DNA from: Pseudomonas sp. stari2
Lineage (GTDB): Bacteria > Pseudomonadota > Gammaproteobacteria > Pseudomonadales > Pseudomonadaceae
Assembly (NCBI RefSeq): GCF_040760005.1
Contig: NZ_CP099760.1
Location: 2,351,501-2,415,500 of the forward strand
Reading direction: 5' to 3'
Length of the DNA stretch: 64,000 bases
A program made the position numbers and the translations under genes. Of the stretch, positions 1-10,400 are shown in pieces. How positions within the stretch are numbered: the stretch's first letter is position 1; the number at the start of each line of letters is the position of its first letter. The notes beneath the pieces are model-generated. The model did no database searches, had not been told where the DNA came from, and saw nothing but the letters and a program-made list of their open reading frames with translations.

Positions 1-27
1 AAATGGAAACAGCGCTTTAAATCTATA

Positions 28-42
28 TGAGAATTACTATAA
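28..42 (+). promoter_or_regulatory. Candidate Fur box upstream of fpvI
   Basis: The 15 bases read TGAGAAT-T-ACTATAA and match the 7-1-7 Fur half-site pattern TGATAAT-N-ATTATCA at 12 of 14 positions. The site overlaps a TATAAA at 38-43 that could be a -10 element, so bound Fur could block transcription of the sigma gene starting at 140. Iron repression of fpvI is established in P. aeruginosa; its use here is inference. Confidence 0.6.
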
Positions 43-139
43 ATTACGTGTCTGAATTTGCCACCATCGTGCCACTGCCTGTTTTGGCAGATCGCCGGTC
101 TGGCTCAAGGATCGAAACCGCACCCTGCGGCCGGGAGTC

Positions 140-622
140 ATGTTGGAAAACTACTATCGCGAGCTGGTGTGTTTCCTGAACGCCAAGCTAGGCAACCGCC
201 AGGTGGCCGAAGATGTAGTGCATGACGCTTATCTGCGGGTACTGGAGCGGTCCAGCGACACGCCGATCGAGCAGCCCCGCGCGTTTCTCTACCGCACGGC
301 TCTCAACCTGGTGATCGATGACCATCGGCGCAATGCCTCGCGTCAGGTCGAATCCCTTGATGTGCTCGATAGCGAAGAGCGCTATTTCAGTCCTTCTCCT
401 CATCACAGCCTCGATCATGGCCAGCGCCTGGCGCTGTTGCAGCGTGCACTGGCCGAGTTGCCGGCGCTGTGCCGCGAGAGCTTTTTACTGCGCAAGATAG
501 AAGGGCTGTCGCACCCGGAAATCGCCGAACACCTTGGCATTTCCAAGGCACTGGTTGAAAAACACATCGTCAACGCCATGAAACATTGCCGGGTGCGCAT
601 CAAGCAATGGGATGGACATTGA
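140..622 (+). CDS. fpvI: ECF sigma factor, FpvI type
   Basis: A 160-residue ECF sigma factor of the iron-starvation (FecI/PvdS/FpvI) class. Region 2 runs from about residue 8 to 65, with the RAFLYRTALNLVIDDHRR segment typical of 2.3-2.4. Region 4 runs from about 100 to 155, with the helix-turn-helix around HPEIAEHLGISKALVEKHI. No extra domain is present. In P. aeruginosa fpvI lies beside pvdA and is 159 residues long, and here pvdA follows directly; FpvI there drives the pyoverdine receptor gene fpvA and is held by the anti-sigma FpvR. GGGAG lies only two bases before the ATG, so the TTG at the second codon could be the true start. A Fur-like box lies upstream. The anti-sigma gene is not in the window. 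FpvI is preferred over PvdS because of length and neighbour. Confidence 0.82.
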   Translation: MLENYYRELVCFLNAKLGNRQVAEDVVHDAYLRVLERSSDTPIEQPRAFLYRTALNLVIDDHRRNASRQVESLDVLDSEERYFSPSPHHSLDHGQRLALLQRALAELPALCRESFLLRKIEGLSHPEIAEHLGISKALVEKHIVNAMKHCRVRIKQWDGH

Positions 623-633
623 TCGTTCCCGGT

Positions 634-657
634 TAAATTTTTTTTCACCGTCCTCGT
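634..657 (+). promoter_or_regulatory. PvdS-type iron-starvation (IS) box for pvdA
   Basis: TAAAT (634-638) and CGT (655-657) are separated by exactly 16 bases, the spacing of promoters read by the pyoverdine sigma factor PvdS. The element sits about 100 bases before pvdA, a known PvdS target in P. aeruginosa. Confidence 0.8.
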
Positions 658-754
658 TCCTACTCAACAGACGATCTGCTGTCCTGCACAAGGCCGGTCA
701 GGTCACCCAGGCTTCATCCCCGCTGTTGAGGGGTTCATCCAGAGGACACTGGAA

Positions 755-2092
755 ATGACACAGGCAATTGCATCGCCCATCGTTCACGACCTGATCGGCG
801 TCGGTTTCGGCCCTTCGAACCTGGCGCTGGCCATCGCTCTGCAGGAGCGAGCCCCGACCCTGGGCGAACTGGATGTGCTGTTTCTCGACAAGCAACCGAC
901 CTACAGCTGGCACGGCAACACCCTGTCGACCCAGAGCGAGTTGCAGATTTCCTTCCTCAAGGATCTGGTGACCCTGCGCAACCCGACCAGCCCGTATTCG
1001 TTCGTCAATTACCTCAAGCACCACGGTCGTCTGGTGGACTTCATCAACCTCGGCACCTTTTACCCGTGCCGCATGGAGTACAACGACTACCTGCGCTGGG
1101 TCGCCGCGCAGTTCACCGAGCAGAGCCGTTATGGCGAAGAAGTGCTGACCATCGAGCCAGTCCTGCACAACCATCAGGTTGAAGCGTTGCGAGTGATTTC
1201 CCGTGGTGTGGACGGCCAGCAATTCGTGCGCACCGCGCGCTCGGTGGTGGTCAGCGCCGGTGGCACGCCGCGTATTCCTGAGGCGTTCAAGGCGCTGAAA
1301 GGCGATGCCCGGGTGTTCCACCACTCGCAGTATCTGGCCGAGATGGCCAAACAACCGTGCGTCAACAACCAGCCGATGAGCATCGCGATCATCGGCGCCG
1401 GCCAGAGCGCGGCGGAAGCCTTCATCGATCTGAACGATTCGTTCCCGTCGGTGCAGGTCGACATGATCCTGCGCGGCTCGGCGCTGAAGCCGGCGGACGA
1501 CAGCCCGTTCGTCAACGAAGTGTTCTCGCCGGAATTCACCGACCTGATCTTCCAGCAGAAGAGCAGCGAGCGTGAGCGTCTGGTCAACGAGTACCACAAC
1601 ACCAATTACTCGGTGGTCGATATCGACCTGATCGAGCGCATCTACGGCATCTTCTATCGGCAGAAAGTCTCCGGCGTGGCACGCCATGCGTTCCGCACCC
1701 TGACCACTGTCGAGAAAACCACTGCTACCGAGCACGGCATCGAACTGACCGTGCGCAACAACGCCACCGGCGAAGTCACCGTGCGTGCCTACGATGCAGT
1801 CGTGCTGGCCACCGGTTATGAGCGTCAGATGCACCGCAAACTGTTGGCGCCGCTGGAAGAGTACTTGGGTGATTTCGAGGTCGATCGCAACTACAAACTG
1901 ATCACCGACGAGCGCTGCAAGGCCGGTCTGTACATGCAGGGCTTCTGCCAGGCCAGCCACGGCCTGAGCGATACGCTGCTGTCGATCCTGCCGATTCGTG
2001 CGGACGAGATTGCCGGCTCGCTGTATGAGCATGGCAAGAGTCGCGGGCACAGCCGTTCGGTGTTGGATCTGTTGTTGGCGACTGCCAGCTAA
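755..2092 (+). CDS. pvdA: L-ornithine N5-monooxygenase (pyoverdine biosynthesis)
   Basis: A flavin-dependent N-hydroxylating monooxygenase that converts L-ornithine to N5-hydroxyornithine with FAD, NADPH and O2, the first committed step for the hydroxamate ligands of pyoverdine. The protein has 445 residues, the family's usual length. The FAD-binding GVGFGPSNLALAI lies near residue 15, the NADPH-binding AIIGAGQSAAEAF near 212-225, and the ATGYE motif near 352. The ATG at 755 is preceded by AGAGG at about 9 bases. It follows fpvI by 132 bases but has its own IS box, so low iron acts through PvdS. A strong terminator follows. No other pyoverdine gene is in the window. Confidence 0.95.
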   Translation: MTQAIASPIVHDLIGVGFGPSNLALAIALQERAPTLGELDVLFLDKQPTYSWHGNTLSTQSELQISFLKDLVTLRNPTSPYSFVNYLKHHGRLVDFINLGTFYPCRMEYNDYLRWVAAQFTEQSRYGEEVLTIEPVLHNHQVEALRVISRGVDGQQFVRTARSVVVSAGGTPRIPEAFKALKGDARVFHHSQYLAEMAKQPCVNNQPMSIAIIGAGQSAAEAFIDLNDSFPSVQVDMILRGSALKPADDSPFVNEVFSPEFTDLIFQQKSSERERLVNEYHNTNYSVVDIDLIERIYGIFYRQKVSGVARHAFRTLTTVEKTTATEHGIELTVRNNATGEVTVRAYDAVVLATGYERQMHRKLLAPLEEYLGDFEVDRNYKLITDERCKAGLYMQGFCQASHGLSDTLLSILPIRADEIAGSLYEHGKSRGHSRSVLDLLLATAS

Positions 2093-2102
2093 TGACTTCC
2101 TG

Positions 2103-2133
2103 ACGACTCCCGCGCCGAGCGCGGGAGTCGTTT
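2103..2133 (+). terminator. Intrinsic terminator after pvdA
   Basis: A perfect 13-bp stem (2103-2115 pairs with 2119-2131) with a CGA loop, followed by a short T run, 11 bases after the pvdA stop. It separates the iron genes from the magnesium block. Confidence 0.85.
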
Positions 2134-2144
2134 CGAGGTCAATC

Positions 2145-2161
2145 CTGAACCCTTCCTGAAT
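2145..2161 (-). promoter_or_regulatory. CTGAA direct repeat, PhoP-box-like (reverse orientation)
   Basis: CTGAAC-N5-CTGAAT on the plus strand reads ATTCAG-N5-GTTCAG on the minus strand. As I recall, the PhoP box of P. aeruginosa is a direct repeat of GTTCAG-like hexamers with 5 bases between. mgtA is a classic PhoPQ target, which makes the match suggestive. The orientation points away from mgtA and I cannot place a clear -10, so this is tentative. Confidence 0.35.
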
Positions 2162-2583
2162 GGCCCTGCATTTGCCCGACACACTTCTTTTTGCGGGTTT
2201 ACTCTCCAGGCATCGGGGCGTAAGCTTCGCGCGTTTTCATCAATAGCGGAGACCCACAGTGGGTACTTGTTCGAGTGACAGTTGTCGGCCGGTCCTTGTA
2301 ACCGGCAGATTCTCGGCAAGATAACGCGCATTCCTTTGTGCCGTTGTCTCGCCGAACAGCGAGCAGCGGCATCCCGATCATGGTCAGTTGAGACCATGTC
2401 CCGACGTCCTTCTCATCGACGCTGAAAAGAGCGTGGTTTCGACTTCATTGTCGCAATCGCAGCCCTATCGACACGCCTGTCTTTTTGACCGGCGCGCCAA
2501 CCCTTGCCGTGCCGGTTTTGCGGTGCAAGAGGGCTGGACGTACCTGCTTGACGGTTTCCCGGCTGACCATAGGGGCAACAGCC
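2162..2583 (+). promoter_or_regulatory. Long structured 5' leader region of mgtA
   Basis: About 420 bases with no long gene. They contain several stable hairpins: 2288-2293/2301-2306 (6 bp), 2340-2346/2364-2370 continued by 2348-2352/2359-2363 (12 bp with one bulged T), and 2379-2385/2392-2398 (7 bp, 6-base loop). A CCCTTGC/GCAAGAGGG pairing lies near 2508-2535. A short ORF (2259-2324) begins the series and its last third forms the first hairpin. Enterobacterial mgtA is controlled by a leader RNA with a proline-rich peptide gene; this sequence is not recognisably that leader or an M-box. A regulatory role is inference. Confidence 0.5.
2259..2324 (+). CDS. Candidate leader peptide of mgtA (21 codons)
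   Basis: A GTG-started frame of 21 codons ending in TAA, reading MGTCSSDSCRPV and continuing LVTGRFSAR. A GGAG lies exactly 7 bases before the GTG, one of the best ribosome sites in this region, which is why it is listed despite its size. The codons overlap the first leader hairpin at 2288-2306, so translation of the peptide would melt that hairpin and could steer the folding of the later ones, as in attenuation. I do not recognise the peptide. It has only one proline, unlike Salmonella MgtL. An uncharacterised upstream ORF without function is the alternative. Confidence 0.4.
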   Translation: MGTCSSDSCRPVLVTGRFSAR

Positions 2584-5283
2584 ATGAAACTTACGCTCAA
2601 GGAATTTTTCGCAGGCTTCCTGCGCACACGCCACATCGCCCGGCACTTCCGTCGCCTGGCGTTGCTGGAAACCCTCAAAGACACCACGGTCAGCCGTGAG
2701 GTGCCGCCCACCCTGGCCAATACGCTGGTGGACGCCGCCCATTGCGACAGCGGTGTGCTGCTGTCGAACCTCGGCACCCACACTGATGGCCTCACCGATT
2801 TCGAAGTCGATGTGCTGCGTGCACAGCATGGCCTCAACGAAGTCGAGCATGAGCAACCGCTGCCGTGGTGGACCCACCTGTGGCACTGCTACAAAAACCC
2901 GTTCAACCTGCTGCTGACCCTGTTGGCGGTGATCTCGTGGCTGACCGATGACCTGAAAGCCGCCATCGTGATCTTCTCCATGGTGGTGCTCTCGACCCTG
3001 CTGCGCTTCTGGCAGGAAAGCAAATCCAACCAGGCGGCCGACGCGCTCAAGGCGATGGTCAGCAACACCGCCACCGTGCTGCGCCGGGATGCGCCGCGCA
3101 CTGAACTGCCGATCAAGCAACTGGTGCCGGGCGATCTGATCGTGCTCTCGGCCGGCGACATGATTCCTGCCGATTGCCGGGTGCTCAGCGCCAAGGATCT
3201 GTTCGTCAGCCAGGCCGCGATGACCGGCGAATCGATGCCGGTGGAGAAATTCCCCCGTCAGGCGGATCGCGATACGCGCAACCCGCTGGAGCTGGACAAC
3301 ATCCTGTTCATGGGCACCAACGTGGTGTCCGGGACAGCGGTGGCGGTGATTCTCACCACCGGCAACAGCACCTATTTCGGTGCGCTGGCGCTGCGGGTCG
3401 GGGCAACGGATCGCGCGGTGACTTCGTTCCAGAGAGGTGTGAACAAGGTCAGCTGGCTGTTGATCCGCTTCATGTTCGTCATGGCGCCGCTGGTGTTGTT
3501 CATCAACGGTTTCACCAAGGGTGACTGGACCGAAGCGTTGCTGTTCGCGCTGTCGATCGCCGTGGGCCTGACCCCGGAAATGCTGCCGATGATCGTCACC
3601 TCGACCCTGGCCAAGGGTGCGGTATTCCTGTCGCGCAAGAAGGTCATCGTCAAACGCCTGGACGCGATCCAGAACTTCGGCGCCATGGACGTGCTGTGCA
3701 CCGACAAGACCGGCACGTTGACCCAGGACAAGATCTTCCTCGCGCGCAATGTCGATGTCTGGGGTGAAGACTCCGATGACGTGCTGGAAATGGCTTATCT
3801 GAACAGCTACTACCAGACCGGCCTGAAAAACCTGCTCGATGTGGCAGTGCTGGAGCACGTGGAAATCCACCGTGAACTGAAAGTCGGCACGGCGTATCGC
3901 AAGGTCGACGAGATCCCGTTCGACTTCAATCGCCGGCGCATGTCGGTGGTGGTGGAAGGACACGGCCAACCGCATCAGTTGATCTGCAAAGGCGCGGTGG
4001 AAGAAGTGTTGTCGGTGTGCACCCGGGTTCGTCACGGTGAAGTCGACGAAGCCTTGAGCGATGAATTGCTGGCGAGAATTCGTCAGGTCACAGCAGCATT
4101 CAACGCTGAAGGCTTGCGCGTGGTCGCGGTGGCGGCACGGTCGATGCCTGAAGGGCGCGACACTTACAGCCTGGGCGACGAGCAGGAGCTGACGCTGATC
4201 GGTTACGTGGCATTCCTCGATCCTCCGAAGGAAAGCACCGCGCCGGCACTCAAGGCTCTGGCCGAACACGGTGTGGCCGTAAAAGTGCTGACCGGCGACA
4301 ACGAGCTAGTGACCGCTAAGATCTGCCGTGAAGTGGGCCTGGCCCAGCAAGGCCTGTTGATGGGCAACGACATCGAACGCATGAGCGATGCGCAACTGGC
4401 AGTGGCGGTAGAAACCACCAACGTGTTCGCCAAGCTGACGCCGACCCACAAGGAACGCATCGTGCGCATCCTCAAGGGCAACGGCCATGTGGTCGGATTC
4501 ATGGGTGACGGCATCAACGACGCACCGGCCCTGCGCACCGCGGACATCGGTATTTCCGTGGACAGCGCAGTCGATATCGCCAAGGAAGCGGCCGACATCA
4601 TCCTGCTGGAAAAGAGCCTGATGGTGCTGGAGGAGGGCGTGCTGGAAGGGCGCCGGACCTTCGCCAACATGCTCAAGTACATCAAGATGACTGCCAGCTC
4701 GAACTTCGGCAACGTGTTCTCGGTACTGGTGGCCAGTGCGTTCATTCCGTTCCTGCCGATGCTGCCGATGCACCTGCTGGTGCAGAACCTGCTGTATGAC
4801 ATTTCGCAGATCGCGATCCCGTTCGACAACGTCGACGACGAAATGCTGAAACAGCCACAGCGCTGGCAGCCTGGGGATGTCGGGCGCTTCATGCTGTTCT
4901 TCGGCCCGATCAGTTCGATCTTCGACATCACAACGTTCGCCTTGATGTGGTACGTGTTCGATGCCAACACCCCGGATCACCAGACCCTGTTCCAGTCCGG
5001 CTGGTTCGTGGTGGGGCTGCTGACCCAGACGCTGATCGTGCACATGATCCGCACGCCGAAGATTCCGTTCCTGCAAAGCCGCGCGGCCATGCCGCTGCTG
5101 GTGATGACCGGAATCATCATGGCCGTGGGCATCTTCCTGCCGATGGGGCCGCTGGCGCACTACTTCAAACTGCAGGCACTGCCGTCGATGTACTTCGTGT
5201 TCCTGCCGGTGATCCTGCTGGCGTACATGGCACTGACTCAGGCTGTTAAAGGCTTTTACATCCGTCGGTTCGGCTGGCAGTAA
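2584..5283 (+). CDS. mgtA: Magnesium-transporting P-type ATPase
   Basis: A P3B-type ATPase of 899 residues that imports Mg2+ into the cytoplasm with ATP hydrolysis. The phosphorylated aspartate is D374 in CTDKTGTLT. The TGES-type actuator motif (AAMTGESMP) lies near 215 and the hinge GDGINDAP near 642. Paired membrane segments lie near 100-145, 290-340 and in the last 200 residues (LLVQNLLYDISQIAIPFDN, then four C-terminal helices). The frame is open further upstream, but MKLTLKEFF at 2584 is chosen as the start because it gives family length; CAACAGCC before the ATG is only a weak ribosome site. mgtC follows 54 bases later, as in other magnesium-starvation operons. A long leader precedes it. 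Confidence 0.95.
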   Translation: MKLTLKEFFAGFLRTRHIARHFRRLALLETLKDTTVSREVPPTLANTLVDAAHCDSGVLLSNLGTHTDGLTDFEVDVLRAQHGLNEVEHEQPLPWWTHLWHCYKNPFNLLLTLLAVISWLTDDLKAAIVIFSMVVLSTLLRFWQESKSNQAADALKAMVSNTATVLRRDAPRTELPIKQLVPGDLIVLSAGDMIPADCRVLSAKDLFVSQAAMTGESMPVEKFPRQADRDTRNPLELDNILFMGTNVVSGTAVAVILTTGNSTYFGALALRVGATDRAVTSFQRGVNKVSWLLIRFMFVMAPLVLFINGFTKGDWTEALLFALSIAVGLTPEMLPMIVTSTLAKGAVFLSRKKVIVKRLDAIQNFGAMDVLCTDKTGTLTQDKIFLARNVDVWGEDSDDVLEMAYLNSYYQTGLKNLLDVAVLEHVEIHRELKVGTAYRKVDEIPFDFNRRRMSVVVEGHGQPHQLICKGAVEEVLSVCTRVRHGEVDEALSDELLARIRQVTAAFNAEGLRVVAVAARSMPEGRDTYSLGDEQELTLIGYVAFLDPPKESTAPALKALAEHGVAVKVLTGDNELVTAKICREVGLAQQGLLMGNDIERMSDAQLAVAVETTNVFAKLTPTHKERIVRILKGNGHVVGFMGDGINDAPALRTADIGISVDSAVDIAKEAADIILLEKSLMVLEEGVLEGRRTFANMLKYIKMTASSNFGNVFSVLVASAFIPFLPMLPMHLLVQNLLYDISQIAIPFDNVDDEMLKQPQRWQPGDVGRFMLFFGPISSIFDITTFALMWYVFDANTPDHQTLFQSGWFVVGLLTQTLIVHMIRTPKIPFLQSRAAMPLLVMTGIIMAVGIFLPMGPLAHYFKLQALPSMYFVFLPVILLAYMALTQAVKGFYIRRFGWQ

Positions 5284-5294
5284 CAGGAATGACT

Positions 5295-5318
5295 CCCCCC
5301 TTGTGGGAGCAAGGGGGG
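5295..5318. repeat. Intra-operon hairpin, decayed REP-like element
   Basis: A 9-bp perfect stem, CCCCCCTTG with CAAGGGGGG, and a TGGGAG loop, placed between mgtA and mgtC. The core TTGTGGGAGCAAG resembles the TGTGGGAGC family of REP sequences common in P. fluorescens. It lacks a T tract, so it may stabilise mgtA mRNA or reduce mgtC expression rather than terminate. Confidence 0.55.
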
Positions 5319-5337
5319 CGGTTTCAAGGAGTTCAAC

Positions 5338-6054
5338 ATGCAAGCCATCAACAACATCAACCTCGATTCGCTGCTCGATACTCTGGTCAGCCTCAGCGCG
5401 GCGTTCATTCTCGGTGGGCTGATCGGTTTCGAGCGCCAGTACCGGCAACGTACGGCGGGCTTGCGCACAAACGTGCTGGTGGCGGTCGGTGCGGCGATTT
5501 TCGTCGATATGGCCAACCGGCTCGGTGGGGCCGAAGGCGCAGTCCGGGTGGTTGCCTATGTGGTGTCCGGGATCGGTTTCCTCGGCGCCGGTGTGATCAT
5601 GCGCGAAGAGGGCAACGTGCGCGGTCTCAACACCGCCGCCACGCTTTGGACTTCGGCAGCGGTCGGCGCCTGTGCCGGCGCCGACCTGCTGGCCGAAGCC
5701 GTGCTCGGCACCTTGTTCGTGCTCGCTGCCAACACCTTACTGCGGCCGATCGTCAACAACATCAACCGCCAGCCGCTGGATGTGGTCTCGGCGGAAGTTA
5801 CCAACATCGTCTACGTGATCGCCCGGCGCTCGCAGCAGACCGCTGTATTCGCCTTGCTTGAGGCCGAGCTCGAACGCAGCAACTACCCGGCCAGTGACGT
5901 CGATGTACACGCTTTCGGTGCCGATGAAATCGAGATCGAAGCCACGCTCGCAACGACATCGGTGGACGGCGATGAACTGGACGCACTGGTGAAGCGGATT
6001 TCAACTTCGAACCTGGTGGTTCAGGCGTTCTGGAGTCCGAGTACCACGGAGTAA
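5338..6054 (+). CDS. mgtC: MgtC/SapB family inner-membrane protein
   Basis: A 238-residue MgtC-family protein. Four to five hydrophobic helices occupy about residues 10-140, with the family signature GGLIGFERQYRQRTAGLRTN near 25-45 and GLNTAATLWTSAAVGAC near 97-113. The C-terminal 90 residues form a soluble ACT-like domain, so this is the full two-domain form. MgtC proteins help growth in low magnesium and in macrophages by acting on membrane ATPases; direct Mg2+ transport is not established for them. AAGGAG lies about 9 bases before the ATG. It is very likely co-transcribed with mgtA. Confidence 0.9.
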   Translation: MQAINNINLDSLLDTLVSLSAAFILGGLIGFERQYRQRTAGLRTNVLVAVGAAIFVDMANRLGGAEGAVRVVAYVVSGIGFLGAGVIMREEGNVRGLNTAATLWTSAAVGACAGADLLAEAVLGTLFVLAANTLLRPIVNNINRQPLDVVSAEVTNIVYVIARRSQQTAVFALLEAELERSNYPASDVDVHAFGADEIEIEATLATTSVDGDELDALVKRISTSNLVVQAFWSPSTTE

Positions 6055-6123
6055 GCAAGCGAATGCCCATTGTCGGGCAATGGCAAAGGTGGCCATCAAT
6101 CCGGATGAGTGACGGTTATTTTC

Positions 6124-6133
6124 GGAATAGTCC
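6124..6133. promoter_or_regulatory. Short dyad GGA-N4-TCC upstream of the signalling cluster
   Basis: The sequence TCGGAATAGTCCTACAG contains GGA-ATAG-TCC about 67 bases before the receiver gene. Dyads of this size are the kind of site NarL/BvgA-type regulators bind, and such a regulator is encoded two genes down, so autoregulation is possible. No experiment that I know of links this motif to a specific regulator. Confidence 0.3.
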
Positions 6134-6199
6134 TACAGAGCATGCCTCGATGCTTGGGTAGTCTTGCCGCCACTTGAAGCGACTGGCGGGACTTTCACG

Positions 6200-6637
6200 A
6201 TGGCCGACAAAACCTTGCGTATTTTGATCGCTGACACCCGGCACTTTCACCGGATGAAGATCGAGCGGATGTTCAATGCCCTCAATTACTACCGCATTGC
6301 ACCGGTGCAGAACTTCACCGAACTGCTGTCACTGATCGATTTCGGCTGCGAGCCGTTCGATGTACTGGTGACCGACTCTCAACTGGCAGATGGAATGCCG
6401 GATCTGCAAGGATTCCTGTTCGATCTGGCGCAAGTCCGGCATGCATTGGTCTATGGCGAAGCGCTGAACTCATCGGATGTTCCCGGATACTTTCGGCCAA
6501 AGATCACCACCTGCAACGCTGCGCTGCCCTCAATGAGCGCCATCACACAGTTGATGGCGTCGGTCGAGGCTTCCCGGGTGCGCTCTTCAGAGGGCTGCCC
6601 GGTTAAACCTCGGGTGCAATTGCATGCCGGATCATAG
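6200..6637 (+). CDS. Stand-alone atypical receiver-domain protein
   Basis: A 145-residue protein that is essentially one CheY-like receiver, with no output domain. ILIADTRHF near residues 8-16 corresponds to the first strand and VLVTDSQLADGMPD to the third, with D59 as the likely phosphoacceptor position. Only one acidic residue (D12) is present where two are usual. The Thr/Ser switch position reads HALVYGEAL, and the Lys motif is displaced (YFRPKITT), so it may be a pseudo-receiver. The C-terminal 35 residues are unlike a receiver. The ATG at 6200 gives a clean domain start; the upstream codons do not look coding. It precedes a BvgA-like regulator and a BvgS-like kinase. A role as a phosphate sink or binding partner is inference. 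Confidence 0.65.
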   Translation: MADKTLRILIADTRHFHRMKIERMFNALNYYRIAPVQNFTELLSLIDFGCEPFDVLVTDSQLADGMPDLQGFLFDLAQVRHALVYGEALNSSDVPGYFRPKITTCNAALPSMSAITQLMASVEASRVRSSEGCPVKPRVQLHAGS

Positions 6638-6772
6638 TTGAGGCGATGGCACAACTGTCAGGTTTGACAGGTGCCACAGTGGGCGTCTCGTGTAACAGTC
6701 GTCGCGCGGGCGCCATTTGTTCCGTTCAGTCAAGATCGTTGGCGTAATCATGTATTCGCACCGGGAGTGGAC

Positions 6773-7399
6773 ATGGGTTCAGTAGTGTTCGCCGAAGACC
6801 ATCCGGTGGTGGCCTTGGCCATCCGAATTCTGTTGCAGGAGTTGGGTTACAAAGAGATTCACGTTGTGTCGCGCGGAGTCGACGTCGTGCCGATGATCCG
6901 TAAACATTCGCCGGAGCTGGTCATACTCGACTTGAATCTCCCCGGTACGGGCGGACTGGCGGTGCTGGAGCGTATCCAGATCATCGGAATCGTCTGCAAG
7001 GTGGTGATTTTCACTTCGGCCGATCCGGCGCATTTCATGGTGCGTTGCCGTCAGGCGGGGGCCATGGCTTTTGTCAACAAATCTGCCGAATTGCGGCAGT
7101 TGCAGAATGCAATAAAAGCTGTCCGCTCAGGCTATAGCTACTTTCCCGAACTGCCGGCGGTCAATGCAGGACAACCCGGTGTACACAGTAATGAGAAAGC
7201 GCTGATCGAACGGCTGTCCAACCGCGAAATGTACATCCTGCTGCAACTGGCTCACGGCAAATCCAACAAACTCATCGCCGAAGAAATGAGCCTGAGCCAC
7301 AAGACCATCAGTACCTACAAGACCCGCTTGATGCTCAAGCTTGGAATGAGTTCGCTGGTGTTGCTGCGAGAGTTCGTCAAACGCAACGGTCTGTTCTGA
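6773..7399 (+). CDS. NarL/BvgA-type two-component response regulator
   Basis: A 208-residue response regulator. The N-terminal receiver (about 1-120) has E8-D9, phosphoacceptor D53 in LVILDLNLPG, a Thr switch in VVIFTSADP and Lys in AFVNKSAEL, so it looks fully competent. The C-terminal LuxR-type helix-turn-helix (about 145-205) contains LSNREMYILLQLAHGKSNK and LSHKTISTYKTRLMLKLG. The start at 6773 follows GGGAG by about 7 bases. Ten bases separate its stop from the hybrid kinase gene, so the two form an operon and a likely cognate pair resembling BvgA/BvgS, EvgA/EvgS or P. aeruginosa RocA/RocS. The regulon is unknown. Confidence 0.9.
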   Translation: MGSVVFAEDHPVVALAIRILLQELGYKEIHVVSRGVDVVPMIRKHSPELVILDLNLPGTGGLAVLERIQIIGIVCKVVIFTSADPAHFMVRCRQAGAMAFVNKSAELRQLQNAIKAVRSGYSYFPELPAVNAGQPGVHSNEKALIERLSNREMYILLQLAHGKSNKLIAEEMSLSHKTISTYKTRLMLKLGMSSLVLLREFVKRNGLF

Positions 7400-7409
7400 G
7401 GGGCTGCCG

Positions 7410-10400
7410 ATGAAAAGAGCGCAGCGTTTCGTTTGCCTGTTGCTGTTGATGTTTGCCACAGCAGTGCAGGCGATCAACGTTGCGCAGCCGCTGGAAATCA
7501 TCTCTCGCACCCGGCTGGAGGGCGTGCGGGTTCGCCTCGACGACCAGGATCGGCAGTGGCTCCGGGCACACCCGGTATTGCGCATCGGCGCTTCCGGGCC
7601 GGACTATCCTCCCTTTGAGTTGACCCGCAACCGGCATGAACTGGAAGGCCTCACGGCCGAGTACGCCGACGCGATCGCACAGGTGCTGAATGTCCGGATC
7701 GAGGTCTTGTGCTACCCCGACCGCGAAACCGCCATGGCCGCGCTCAAGGCCGGGGAACTGGACTTGCTGGGCACCTCGAACAACTTTGAGATGGCCGATC
7801 CCGACCTGATGCTTTCTCGTGCCTACGCCGAAGATCAGCCGATGTGGGTGACCCGGCTCGACGAACCGGTGCCCGATGATCTGTCAGGGAAGCGTATCGC
7901 CATAGTGGATGACTACCTGCCGGCCTCGACCATCGAAAGGGCTTACCCGCAAGCCACCTTGCAGCGTTATCGCTCGATTCTCGATGCCCTCGGCGCCGTG
8001 GCATTCGGGCGGGATGACCTGTATCTCGGCGATATCATCAGCGCCAGCTATCTGATCAACATCAACTTCCACAACGATCTGCAACTGGCCGGCCCCTCGG
8101 GTCTCGACGCCAACCCGTTCGCCTTTGCCCTGACTCGCAGCAACACACGCTTGAAACGACTGGTCGACAAGGCCTTGCTGGCCATTCCCATGGAGCAACG
8201 CCTGGCCATGGAGCTGCGCTGGAGTGCCGGGCGTGCGGACATTACGGGACAAGCGCGGGTAAGTCTCAGCAGCAGTGAAAAGGCGTGGCTCGGCCGGCAT
8301 CCGAGCGTGCGGGTCGGTGCGATCGAGGATTTCGCCCCGTTGACGTTCTTTGATGCCGAGGGAAAAGTGCAGGGGCTCACGGCGCAGTTGTTGAGCCTGA
8401 TCAGTCAGCGCAGCGGCCTGAAGTTCGAGATCGTACGGGGGCAGTCACTGGACCGACAGATCGAACAGTTGAAGGCCGGGGAGCTTGATCTGCTGCCCGT
8501 GGTGACACCCAGCAGCGAGCGTGAACTCGAAATGCGCTTCTCCCGGGCCTATCTGAACAATCCGTTCGTGCTGGTCAGCGGGGTATCGGCGTCGGGCGTG
8601 AGAACCCTGGACGACATGGCCGGCAAACGGCTGGCGATCTATCGCGGTCACCCGTTGCGCGATTATCTGCTGGAGCGAGTACCGCAGCTCAAATTGGTTG
8701 AAGTACCAAGCCCGGCTGCCGGAATGGAAGCGATTGTCAGCGGGCAGGCCGATGCCACGTTGAGTTCGTTGATGGTGGCGCGCTATCTGATTTCCCGTCA
8801 GTACCGGGGGCGTACCCGGATTGTCGGCACGGTGGGGGATCAGCCTGCCCGGATTGCATTGGCCACCGCCCCGGATGCCGTGGTGTTGTACTCGATTCTG
8901 AACAAGGCGTTGTTGAGCATTGCCCCCAAGGAACTCGACGATCTGGTCGAGCGCTGGGGCCGTGACGCGGTTGCCGATGACAGTTACTGGCAGCGCCATC
9001 GACGGGAAATTCTGTTTGGATTCGCCGGTGCGTCGGGATTGCTATTGCTGGCATTGGGCTGGATCGCTTTTCAGCGCCGACAGATTCGCCAGCGCCAGCA
9101 ATGGCTACGCCAATTGCAGGAGGCCAAGGATGCGGCCGATGACGCCAACCGTGCCAAAAGCACGTTTCTCGCGGTCATGAGCCACGAAATCCGCACACCC
9201 ATGAACGCGTTGCTGGGCATGCTCGAGCTGGCGCTCAAGCGTGCCGACGAAGGCGTGACTGATCGCCCGGCCATTGAGGTGGCATCCAGTGCGGGGCGGC
9301 AGTTATTGGCATTGATCGGCGATATTCTCGACATCGCGCGTATTGAATCCGGGCGTTTGTCACTGAGTCCCGAGCGTACCAATCTGCGCGAGGTGGTGGC
9401 CTCGGTGTGCCAGATTTTCGAAGGCCTGGCGCGGCAAAAGCATTTGTCGTGGCACGTAGAACTGGATGAGCGCAGCAACGTTGAGGTGATGCTAGATCCC
9501 CTGCGTTTCAAGCAAGTGCTGGCGAACCTGATGAGCAACGCGATCAAGTTCACCGATGACGGAGAGGTGAGCCTGCTGCTGCAAGTGTTCACCGCGCAGG
9601 ATGGACAGGTGGAAGTGGGGGTGATCATCAAAGACAGCGGTCGCGGTATCACTGCCGAGGATCAGGAGCGATTGTTCAGACCGTTCGAACAAGTCGGCAT
9701 TCATCAATCTTCGGGGCGCAGCGGTTCAGGTCTGGGGCTGGTGATCAGTCGTAACCTGTGCCAGATGATGGGCGGCGATCTGTGGATGAGCAGCGAGCCG
9801 GGTCGCGGCACACAGGTCATGCTGCGACTGGCGCTACCCGTTCTGGAACCACGTGTACAGGAGGCGCTGACGGAGCCAGCGGCGACAGAACAAAAGTCGC
9901 TCAAGGTGCTGGTGGTGGATGATCATCCGGTCAATCGCTTGTTACTGTGCCGGCAATTGAGTGAGCTCGGGCACCGCGCCGTTGACACCGGAGACGGTGA
10001 GCAGGGGCTGGCGGTGTGGCGTGGTGAATCTTTCGATGCATTGATCACCGATATCAACATGCCCGGAACCAATGGTTATGAATTGGCGCGAACGATTCGT
10101 GAAAACGAGGCGGCGACGGGCAGTGCGCCTTGCCTGATACTTGGCTTTACCGCCAATGCGCAGATCGAAGAAAAACAGCGATGCCTGGCAGCCGGCATGG
10201 ACGATTGCCTGTTCAAGCCGATTCTGCTGCGCGAGCTGAGCCATGCCTTGATGGCCGCAGGGGCCGGTGAAGCGCAGGTCGAGCACTTGGACGATCAGGG
10301 ATCGGCTGAATTCGACCTGAGTACGCTTTTGCAACTGGCGGGGGCGGACAACCCGCTGATCGGGCAATTGCGTGAGGAGGTACTGAACAGCCTGCACGCC

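Follow-up and report, generated by a model that had tools for sequence, protein, structure and literature searches.

A conserved leader ORF and mutually exclusive RNA helices upstream of Pseudomonas mgtA suggest a translation-coupled switch for Mg2+-uptake genes

RESULTS

Genes and features of the locus

The window, i.e., the whole stretch of 64,000 nucleotides (nt) analyzed here, comes from Pseudomonas sp. stari2, whose genome of 6.3 Mb is a single contig. It contains an ECF sigma gene, a lysine/ornithine monooxygenase gene (pvdA in a first-pass annotation of this DNA), mgtA and mgtC. The features of the region are collected in Table 1. The hairpin 3′ of the monooxygenase gene, which had been called the pvdA terminator, is real but lacks a good U-run, and a consensus terminator scan of positions 1800 to 3000 listed no terminator on the + strand.

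TABLE 1 Features of the mgtA leader and its surroundings (window positions; A1 and A4 are the alignments described in the text)
Feature	Position	Strand	Remarks
Perfect 10-bp hairpin 3′ of the monooxygenase gene	2105-2129		no good U-run
Sigma-70-type promoter	2198-2226	+	conserved; TTTACT 2198-2203, 17-nt spacer, TAAGCT 2221-2226
GGAG ribosome site of the leader ORF	2248-2251	+	7-nt spacer to GTG; kept in 43/48 representatives
Start hairpin CCC..GTGGG over the ORF start codon	2252-2264	+	weakest helix: 80.8% of cells paired in A1, 73.6% in A4
Leader ORF, VGTCSSDSCRPVLVTGRFSAR	2259-2324	+	21 codons; GTG start; TAA stop at 2322-2324
Hairpin A, GCCGGT/ACCGGC	2288-2306	+	within the ORF; double-sided changes in 5/6 pairs in A1, 6/6 in A4
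Strand 1, GGCAAGATAACG	2315-2326	+	overlaps last codons and stop codon of the leader ORF
Strand 2, TGCCGTTGTCTCGCC	2339-2353	+	pairs with strand 1 or strand 3
Strand 3, GCGAGCAGCGGCA	2359-2371	+	partner of strand 2
Hairpin C, CATGGTC/GACCATG	2379-2398	+	seen in Pseudomonas
Terminator-like hairpin followed by TTTT	2489-2519	+	present at the window locus (L001) and at L072
AGGGG ribosome site of mgtA	2571-2575	+	from sequence
mgtA, Mg2+-translocating P-type ATPase	2584-5283	+	TIGR01524, 1390.9 bits (cut-off 610.75)
mgtC family gene, 3′ of mgtA	5338-6054	+	PF02308, PF21770

The predicted transcription start, at about position 2233, lies upstream of the leader ORF; from the −10 box of the putative promoter, the GGAG is 21 nt and the GTG start 32 nt further on. 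Hexamers, spacing and distance to the ORF were identical in 75 of 138 loci scored, a redundant set, and a TTGACC-N18-TAGAAT variant occurred in six. Since the consensus score of the promoter, taken over the −35 and −10 hexamers, was not above that of shuffled sequences, the evidence for it lies in its constant position.

A conserved short ORF in the leader

The first-pass annotation had singled out a GTG ORF of 21 codons with GGAG 7 bases ahead of its start, and its coordinates agree with ours. Conservation was assessed in an alignment (A1) of 48 representatives picked by DNA similarity with no peptide requirement; 50 had been chosen, and two were dropped because one was cut short (L085) and the 5′ part of the other was replaced (L164). 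Frame 0 was open in all 48, with 15, 20 or 21 codons, compared with 13 and 4 sequences having at least 15 codons open in frames 1 and 2, respectively. The start codon was GTG in 42 and ATG in 6, and GGAG was found at most 16 nt from it in 43, the five sequences devoid of it being L057, L157, L161, L168 and L169. The start, ribosome site and frame of the short ORF are thus conserved, as in leader-peptide attenuators. Synonymous bias, a check proposed in the first-pass annotation, was only borderline: third positions accounted for 19 of the 41 changes in A1 (p = 0.057). In loci preselected on the peptide, third positions were the most changed in codons 2 to 8, and codon 5 had 11 changes, none of which altered the amino acid; that selection makes the set biased. 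We therefore dropped synonymous bias as proof of coding and rely on the openness of the frame instead.

The peptide of the window, which begins VGTCSSDSCRPV, contains one Asp and one Pro that are not adjacent. Distant members of the family mostly retain a ribosome site, a start codon and a Ser/Cys-rich peptide, such as VDTCSSCSSMPVQAGQAIAR (L181), VDSSSSRSCIDHSQVR (Sulfuriferula, L066) and MGTCSSDSC..SAR in the family with 50 of 145 genomes matched (see below). The peptide at L275, in another genus of the family to which Pseudomonas belongs, reads VDTCPGRLRQV. Four Pseudomonas loci (L281 to L284, in G052, G143, G296 and G191, respectively) carry an abbreviated ORF of 15 codons, VNRLSSDSCRPGLAS, preceded by GCAG rather than GGAG, and there the shortened element is close upstream of an mgtC with 88 to 90% identity. 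The peptides read were 11 to 22 codons long, without a long hydrophobic stretch. A second ORF of the window, MSRRPSHRR (2396-2425), was judged to be due to chance, as its ATG was not retained in relatives in the alignment inspected by eye.

A direct Mg2+-binding riboswitch, with the conserved RNA core as aptamer and an ORF that is incidental or serves for tuning only, would account for the structured RNA and for the strong nucleotide conservation across the ORF, synonymous sites included. We regard it as unlikely because start codon and frame are kept in 48/48 sequences and GGAG in 43/48, ORFs of other lengths in relatives (20 or 15 codons) likewise terminate in frame, and distant members change nucleotides, yet the Ser/Cys-rich peptide and usually the ribosome site stay.

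Two mutually exclusive helices with compensatory changes

As claimed in the first-pass annotation, the leader has at least three hairpins: hairpin A, the structure formed by strands 1, 2 and 3, which comprises two mutually exclusive helices, and hairpin C, whose stem shows more double changes than any other in an alignment of 27 Pseudomonas sequences. The end of the ORF had been said to overlap the first hairpin. This overlap exists, but the decisive one is that of the last codons with strand 1.

A1, which was not fitted to any structure, was tested against 500 shuffles using five measures. Helix 2:3 had 96.5% of cells paired and double changes in 6 of 12 pairs; helix 1:2 had 85.4% of cells paired and double changes in 5 of 12 pairs, its fourth pair being mismatched in 32 of 48 sequences. 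Taken together, the start hairpin, hairpin A and helix 1:2 had 85.8% of cells paired and double changes in 11 of 23 pairs. For both structures, none of the 500 shuffles reached the observed values in four measures. The value of the fifth measure (further pair types) was reached by two shuffles for the 2:3 structure and by six for the combined structure containing 1:2. Run unaided on A1, RNAalifold recovered helix 2:3, with the other helices appearing only as fragments, as expected if strand 2 has two partners.

A second alignment (A4), of 73 matches and fitted to the structure including helix 2:3, showed double changes in 18 of 23 pairs, with 166 doubly changed cells versus a shuffle mean of 44. 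On A4, helix 1:2 kept at least 9 of its 12 pairs in 52 rows and 4 to 8 pairs in 21, mostly the most distant ones. A fourth strand opposite strand 3, suggested by a fold, was rejected, as no conserved stem for such a 3:4 helix was seen in the alignment of 27 Pseudomonas sequences.

These data confirm that the combination of a conserved ORF and alternative helices in this leader is more than chance. Covariation in relatives is present in both exclusive helices and hairpin A. Alternative helices with compensatory changes, one strand of which is overlapped by the ORF, are a feature shared with leader-peptide attenuators.

Folding with a modeled ribosome

A ribosome whose front edge extends 11 nt beyond the A-site codon was modeled on the window RNA from 2233 to 2400. 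Helices 1:2 and 2:3 were predicted at 0.43 each with no ribosome. With the A site at codons 2 to 14, 1:2 prevailed (P, 0.83 to 0.89), and with the A site at codons 16 to 22, 2:3 did (P, 0.83), the flip occurring at codon 15-16. An initiating ribosome at codon 1 gave 2:3 (0.78, versus 0.06 for 1:2). In the RNA extended to the mgtA start, 1:2 was dominant without a ribosome (0.89), and the flip at codon 15-16 remained. In partial transcripts ending at 2362, 1:2 was predicted at 0.89. As strand 3 is made last, helix 1:2 would form first during transcription.

The calculations were repeated on the core alone, at equilibrium, for the 48 relatives. Helix 2:3 won in all 48 with a ribosome at the stop codon and in 42 without a ribosome. 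With an early ribosome, 1:2 won in only 24 and 2:3 in the remaining 24, in which a switch could only operate kinetically.

Distribution of the element and downstream genes

A DNA query that extended into the first 57 nt of mgtA matched 136 of 298 sampled Pseudomonas genomes (E ≤ 1e-3). Because it included the 5′ end of mgtA, coverage of the leader core was examined match by match: among the matches listed, 130 genomes had one over the core, and five of the six genomes with weaker matches (G022, G052, G143, G191 and G296, but not G208) were confirmed by covariance models. The window's genome has one clear copy; a partial second match (E = 0.59) was not counted.

Covariance models matched 2 of 369 genomes of the class, namely, the window's own and one judged to be chance, 9 of 398 genomes of the phylum, 50 of 145 genomes of one family, and, in the order of that family, 35 of 349 genomes and 26 of 148 genera. 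From named relatives, we take this order to be the Burkholderiales. Covariance searches of more than 40 genomes used stricter filters, so that some weak matches were lost, and E-values near 1e-3 are uncertain. Matches at L173 (E = 9.4e-4), L276, L278 and L279 were judged to be chance; the one at L173 falls within a reading frame whose product resembles, on inspection by eye, a short-chain dehydrogenase. Little weight is hence attached to E-values of about 1e-3, such as that of the CorA locus L245 (7e-4). Among 45 mgtA loci outside Pseudomonas, 13 of which were in the training set of the model, 26 were matched at E ≤ 0.01, all upstream of mgtA on the same strand.

A census of one locus per genomic place from the phylum, family and order covariance searches counted 78 loci outside Pseudomonas of 79 given, leaving out L255 (contig end) and matches without a retrieved locus. 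The first recognized gene codes for MgtA in 43, an OprB-family porin in 12, an ABC permease in 8, an NRAMP-type protein in 5, a protein of 255 residues in 5, MgtC in 4 and CorA in 1; the OprB, ABC and 255-residue classes were defined from these same 78 loci, L243 (OprB) and L245 (CorA) were placed by Pfam, and the NRAMP-type assignment of L219 rests on 27% identity. At L263 and L267, another ORF lies ahead of an mgtA of about 45% identity. In the 78 loci, the element is thus upstream of structurally unrelated genes, on the same strand and at a variable distance. The covariance matches in other genera and the variety of downstream genes led us to reject both a Pseudomonas-specific and a strictly mgtA-specific leader. 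The "independent solution in Pseudomonas" of the first-pass annotation holds in that this is a leader type of its own, but it is limited neither to Pseudomonas nor to mgtA.

This arrangement also bears on whether the peptide itself is the product. Small proteins such as MgtS and MgtR act in trans on a transporter, and conservation of the leader peptide over a wide range would suit such a role, the RNA helices then being ordinary leader structure. We find this most improbable: throughout the 78 loci of the census the element lies on the same strand as, and upstream of, structurally unrelated genes at variable distances, the peptides, 11 to 22 codons long, contain no extended hydrophobic stretch, and the covarying exclusive helices overlap the stop codon of the ORF.

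The NRAMP-type protein of L195 is closest among PDB entries to 7QIA/7QIC (E = 1.8e-42, versus 1.2e-18 for MntH), which the accessible part of PMC8806188 describes as the Mg2+ transporter EleNRMT. The AAA_assoc_C-type ABC system consists of a permease bearing a pair of BPD_transp_1 stretches and a PF09821-containing ATPase, as established with Pfam for L217 only; transporters of this type are found at L217, L218, L238, L242 and L244. The OprB and ABC genes adjoin at L218, L238 and L242, with the ABC genes behind the porin gene, and mgtC, OprB and mgtA genes lie in a row at L223. The CorA gene of L245 (3202-4176, − strand; Pfam CorA, 163 bits) follows a weak element match (R1 E = 7e-4). The protein of about 255 residues is encoded between the element and mgtA, or alone, at L063, L185, L226, L249, L253 and L273; those of L063 and L185 share a MITDDARIV motif, seen by eye, and belong to no Pfam family. 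Contig 308 of G1192 carries two facing copies of the element, at 67763-67889 (+) and 71483-71609 (−), about 3.6 kb apart.

Within Pseudomonas, the element precedes mgtC where the genome has no close mgtA (L124, L128, L138, L141, L144, L149, L162 and L164). We compared 45 Pseudomonas genomes. Among 22 element-positive ones, mgtA of at least 80% identity occurred in 13 and mgtC at that level in 8 others, and the remaining genome, G005, had only an mgtA fragment of 112 residues. None of 23 element-negative genomes had an mgtA of at least 80% identity, and two (G032 and G141) had mgtC. Close mgtA or mgtC was thus found in 21/22 genomes with the element versus 2/23 without it, and in the latter two the close mgtC (L211 and L212, respectively) has no element upstream. 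A second MgtA-type ATPase, of 55 to 58% identity, is present in element-positive and element-negative groups alike. The G005 locus (L129) has the element followed by a C-terminal mgtA remnant of 112 residues with 93% identity, i.e., a decayed gene with its leader kept. In a neighboring genus, which from its place in the family we infer to be that of P. aeruginosa, a shortened element precedes mgtC in two of three genomes (L274 and L275), and the third (G711) gave no match.

The region between the core and mgtA

A terminator-like hairpin is present in this region at the window locus and L072 (Table 1), and a different one at L113. No terminator-like pattern was found within 700 nt in 30 of 46 loci scanned; an intrinsic terminator as the general output was therefore rejected, and the hairpin of the window is not taken as such. 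C-over-G enrichment of the Rho type was absent in 24 of 25 downstream leaders, an excess at p < 0.05 being found in one; among the 25, the L165 leader measures just 3 nt. The core-to-gene distance was 111 to 407 nt in the Pseudomonas loci measured other than L165. At L165 (G044), the entire downstream leader is absent and the ATG of mgtA directly follows strand 3. There, helix 2:3 would cover the region ahead of the mgtA start codon, which fits 2:3 being the OFF state.

At L113, L148, L150, L152, L155 and L157, a second small ORF lies between the core and mgtA, with a GGGG or GGGA ribosome site in most. Its product is Arg/Pro-rich in the style of MgtL, e.g., MGNFFMPIRRRHHRPALPGCVRLFD (L157). 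The start context of this ORF aligns with that of mgtA in the window, as would result if, in the lineage of the window, a deletion had placed mgtA behind the ribosome site of the second ORF.

DISCUSSION

A proposed translation-coupled switch

Based on sequence comparison and modeled folding, we propose that the leader is a cis-acting, translation-coupled switch, i.e., an attenuator, for Mg2+-uptake genes, a reading to which we assign a probability of about 0.6. With ample Mg2+, the ribosome would translate the whole ORF and cover strand 1, so that 2:3 forms and the downstream gene is OFF. In low Mg2+, it may slow or drop off while translating the conserved N-terminal half of the peptide, TCSSDSxRPV. 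With the ribosome held early, strand 1 would be free, 1:2 would form first, and strand 3 would be left unpaired, the ON state. The output might be exerted through Rho, access to the downstream ribosome site or mRNA decay; as no conserved intrinsic terminator follows the core, Rho access and ribosome-site access are the leading candidates.

The accessible text of PMC4469704 reports strong induction of P. aeruginosa mgtC (PA4635), but not of PA2558, in 10 µM compared with 1 mM Mg2+, and names no leader mechanism. If L274 and L275 belong to that genus, the induction of PA4635 reported there fits the ON-in-low-Mg2+ direction.

Several observations argue against the switch. At equilibrium only 24/48 relatives flip, a ribosome at codon 1 favors 2:3 in the window RNA, and 1:2 is dominant without a ribosome in the RNA extended to mgtA. 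There is no general terminator, no general C-over-G enrichment and no conserved 3:4 helix, and the peptide has no EPDP motif. Finally, helix 1:2 keeps only 4 to 8 of 12 pairs in 21/73 sequences, and two genomes have a close mgtC free of the element.

The same kind of attenuator could instead sense another signal, such as seryl- or cysteinyl-tRNA charging, acidic pH or ATP, and adjust Mg2+ uptake in response. The Ser/Cys-rich peptides are in keeping with this, as is the further rise of P. aeruginosa mgtC expression at low pH in low Mg2+ given in the accessible part of PMC4469704. We nevertheless think it improbable, as what the known downstream families have in common is Mg2+, not serine or cysteine metabolism.

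Implications

The odds appear even to us that a single leader-peptide RNA-switch family, absent from Rfam 15, is a general Mg2+-starvation sensor of Pseudomonas and Burkholderiales and controls four mutually unrelated Mg2+-linked families (MgtA, MgtC, CorA and NRAMP-type). If so, its presence before known Mg2+ families would mark the OprB-family porin and the AAA_assoc_C ABC transporter as previously unrecognized components of Mg2+ uptake, and the element could serve as a marker for unrecognized Mg2+-uptake genes. Rfam 15 and a literature search of titles and abstracts, covering few subscription papers, yielded no description of the element, and no mechanism for mgtA or mgtC control outside enterobacteria was found in the literature searched. 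With a conserved element whose logic can be read, such control becomes directly testable. The new peptide may also render ribosomes Mg2+ sensitive without an EPDP motif.

Comparison with known systems

The first-pass annotation stated that the leader resembles neither the enterobacterial mgtA leader nor an M-box. Consistent with this, a cmscan search of positions 1 to 8000 of the window against Rfam at E ≤ 10 gave six weak, unrelated matches, none of them in 2162-2583, and nine distant loci had no match at the gathering level. The Rfam model for the enterobacterial leader is Mg_sensor. The M-box (ykoK) riboswitch precedes unrelated Mg2+ transporter families, as does the element described here, but the latter has an ORF at its heart and gave no M-box match up to an E of 10.

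In the trp leader, the position of the ribosome on the leader peptide sets the mutually exclusive pairing of RNA strands. Our element shares the leader peptide and the exclusive pairing, with control by the ribosome being modeled here. It differs in having no general terminator hairpin with a U-run, and its strand 1 is at the end of the ORF, so that full translation, not stalling, would favor 2:3. The MgtM/MgtP leader of Salmonella mgtCBR, with two ORFs, is likewise an arrangement of leader ORFs and alternative stems ahead of a Mg2+-stress gene; its signals and stems are others.

The nearest parallel is MgtL of enterobacterial mgtA, for which the accessible part of PMC11282234 describes a short leader ORF whose translation picks the RNA conformation, with expression in low Mg2+, and an acidic/proline EPDP destabilizing motif early in the peptide. 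The Pseudomonas leader also has a short ORF ahead of mgtA, with the choice of fold resting on our model. A Rho-dependent terminator in the leader is a further trait of the enterobacterial system, on which the C-over-G scan above (24 of 25 downstream leaders without enrichment) bears here. In contrast to MgtL as presented in that source, it is found in other clades, its stop codon lies inside strand 1, and the element also precedes genes for MgtC, CorA, NRAMP-type proteins, porins and ABC transporters. As it has neither an EPDP motif nor an Rfam match, we do not place it in the MgtL or M-box families. Our results support an independent translated, foldable mgtA leader, which we read as probably working like enterobacterial mgtL-mgtA, by analogy and unrelated to it in sequence.
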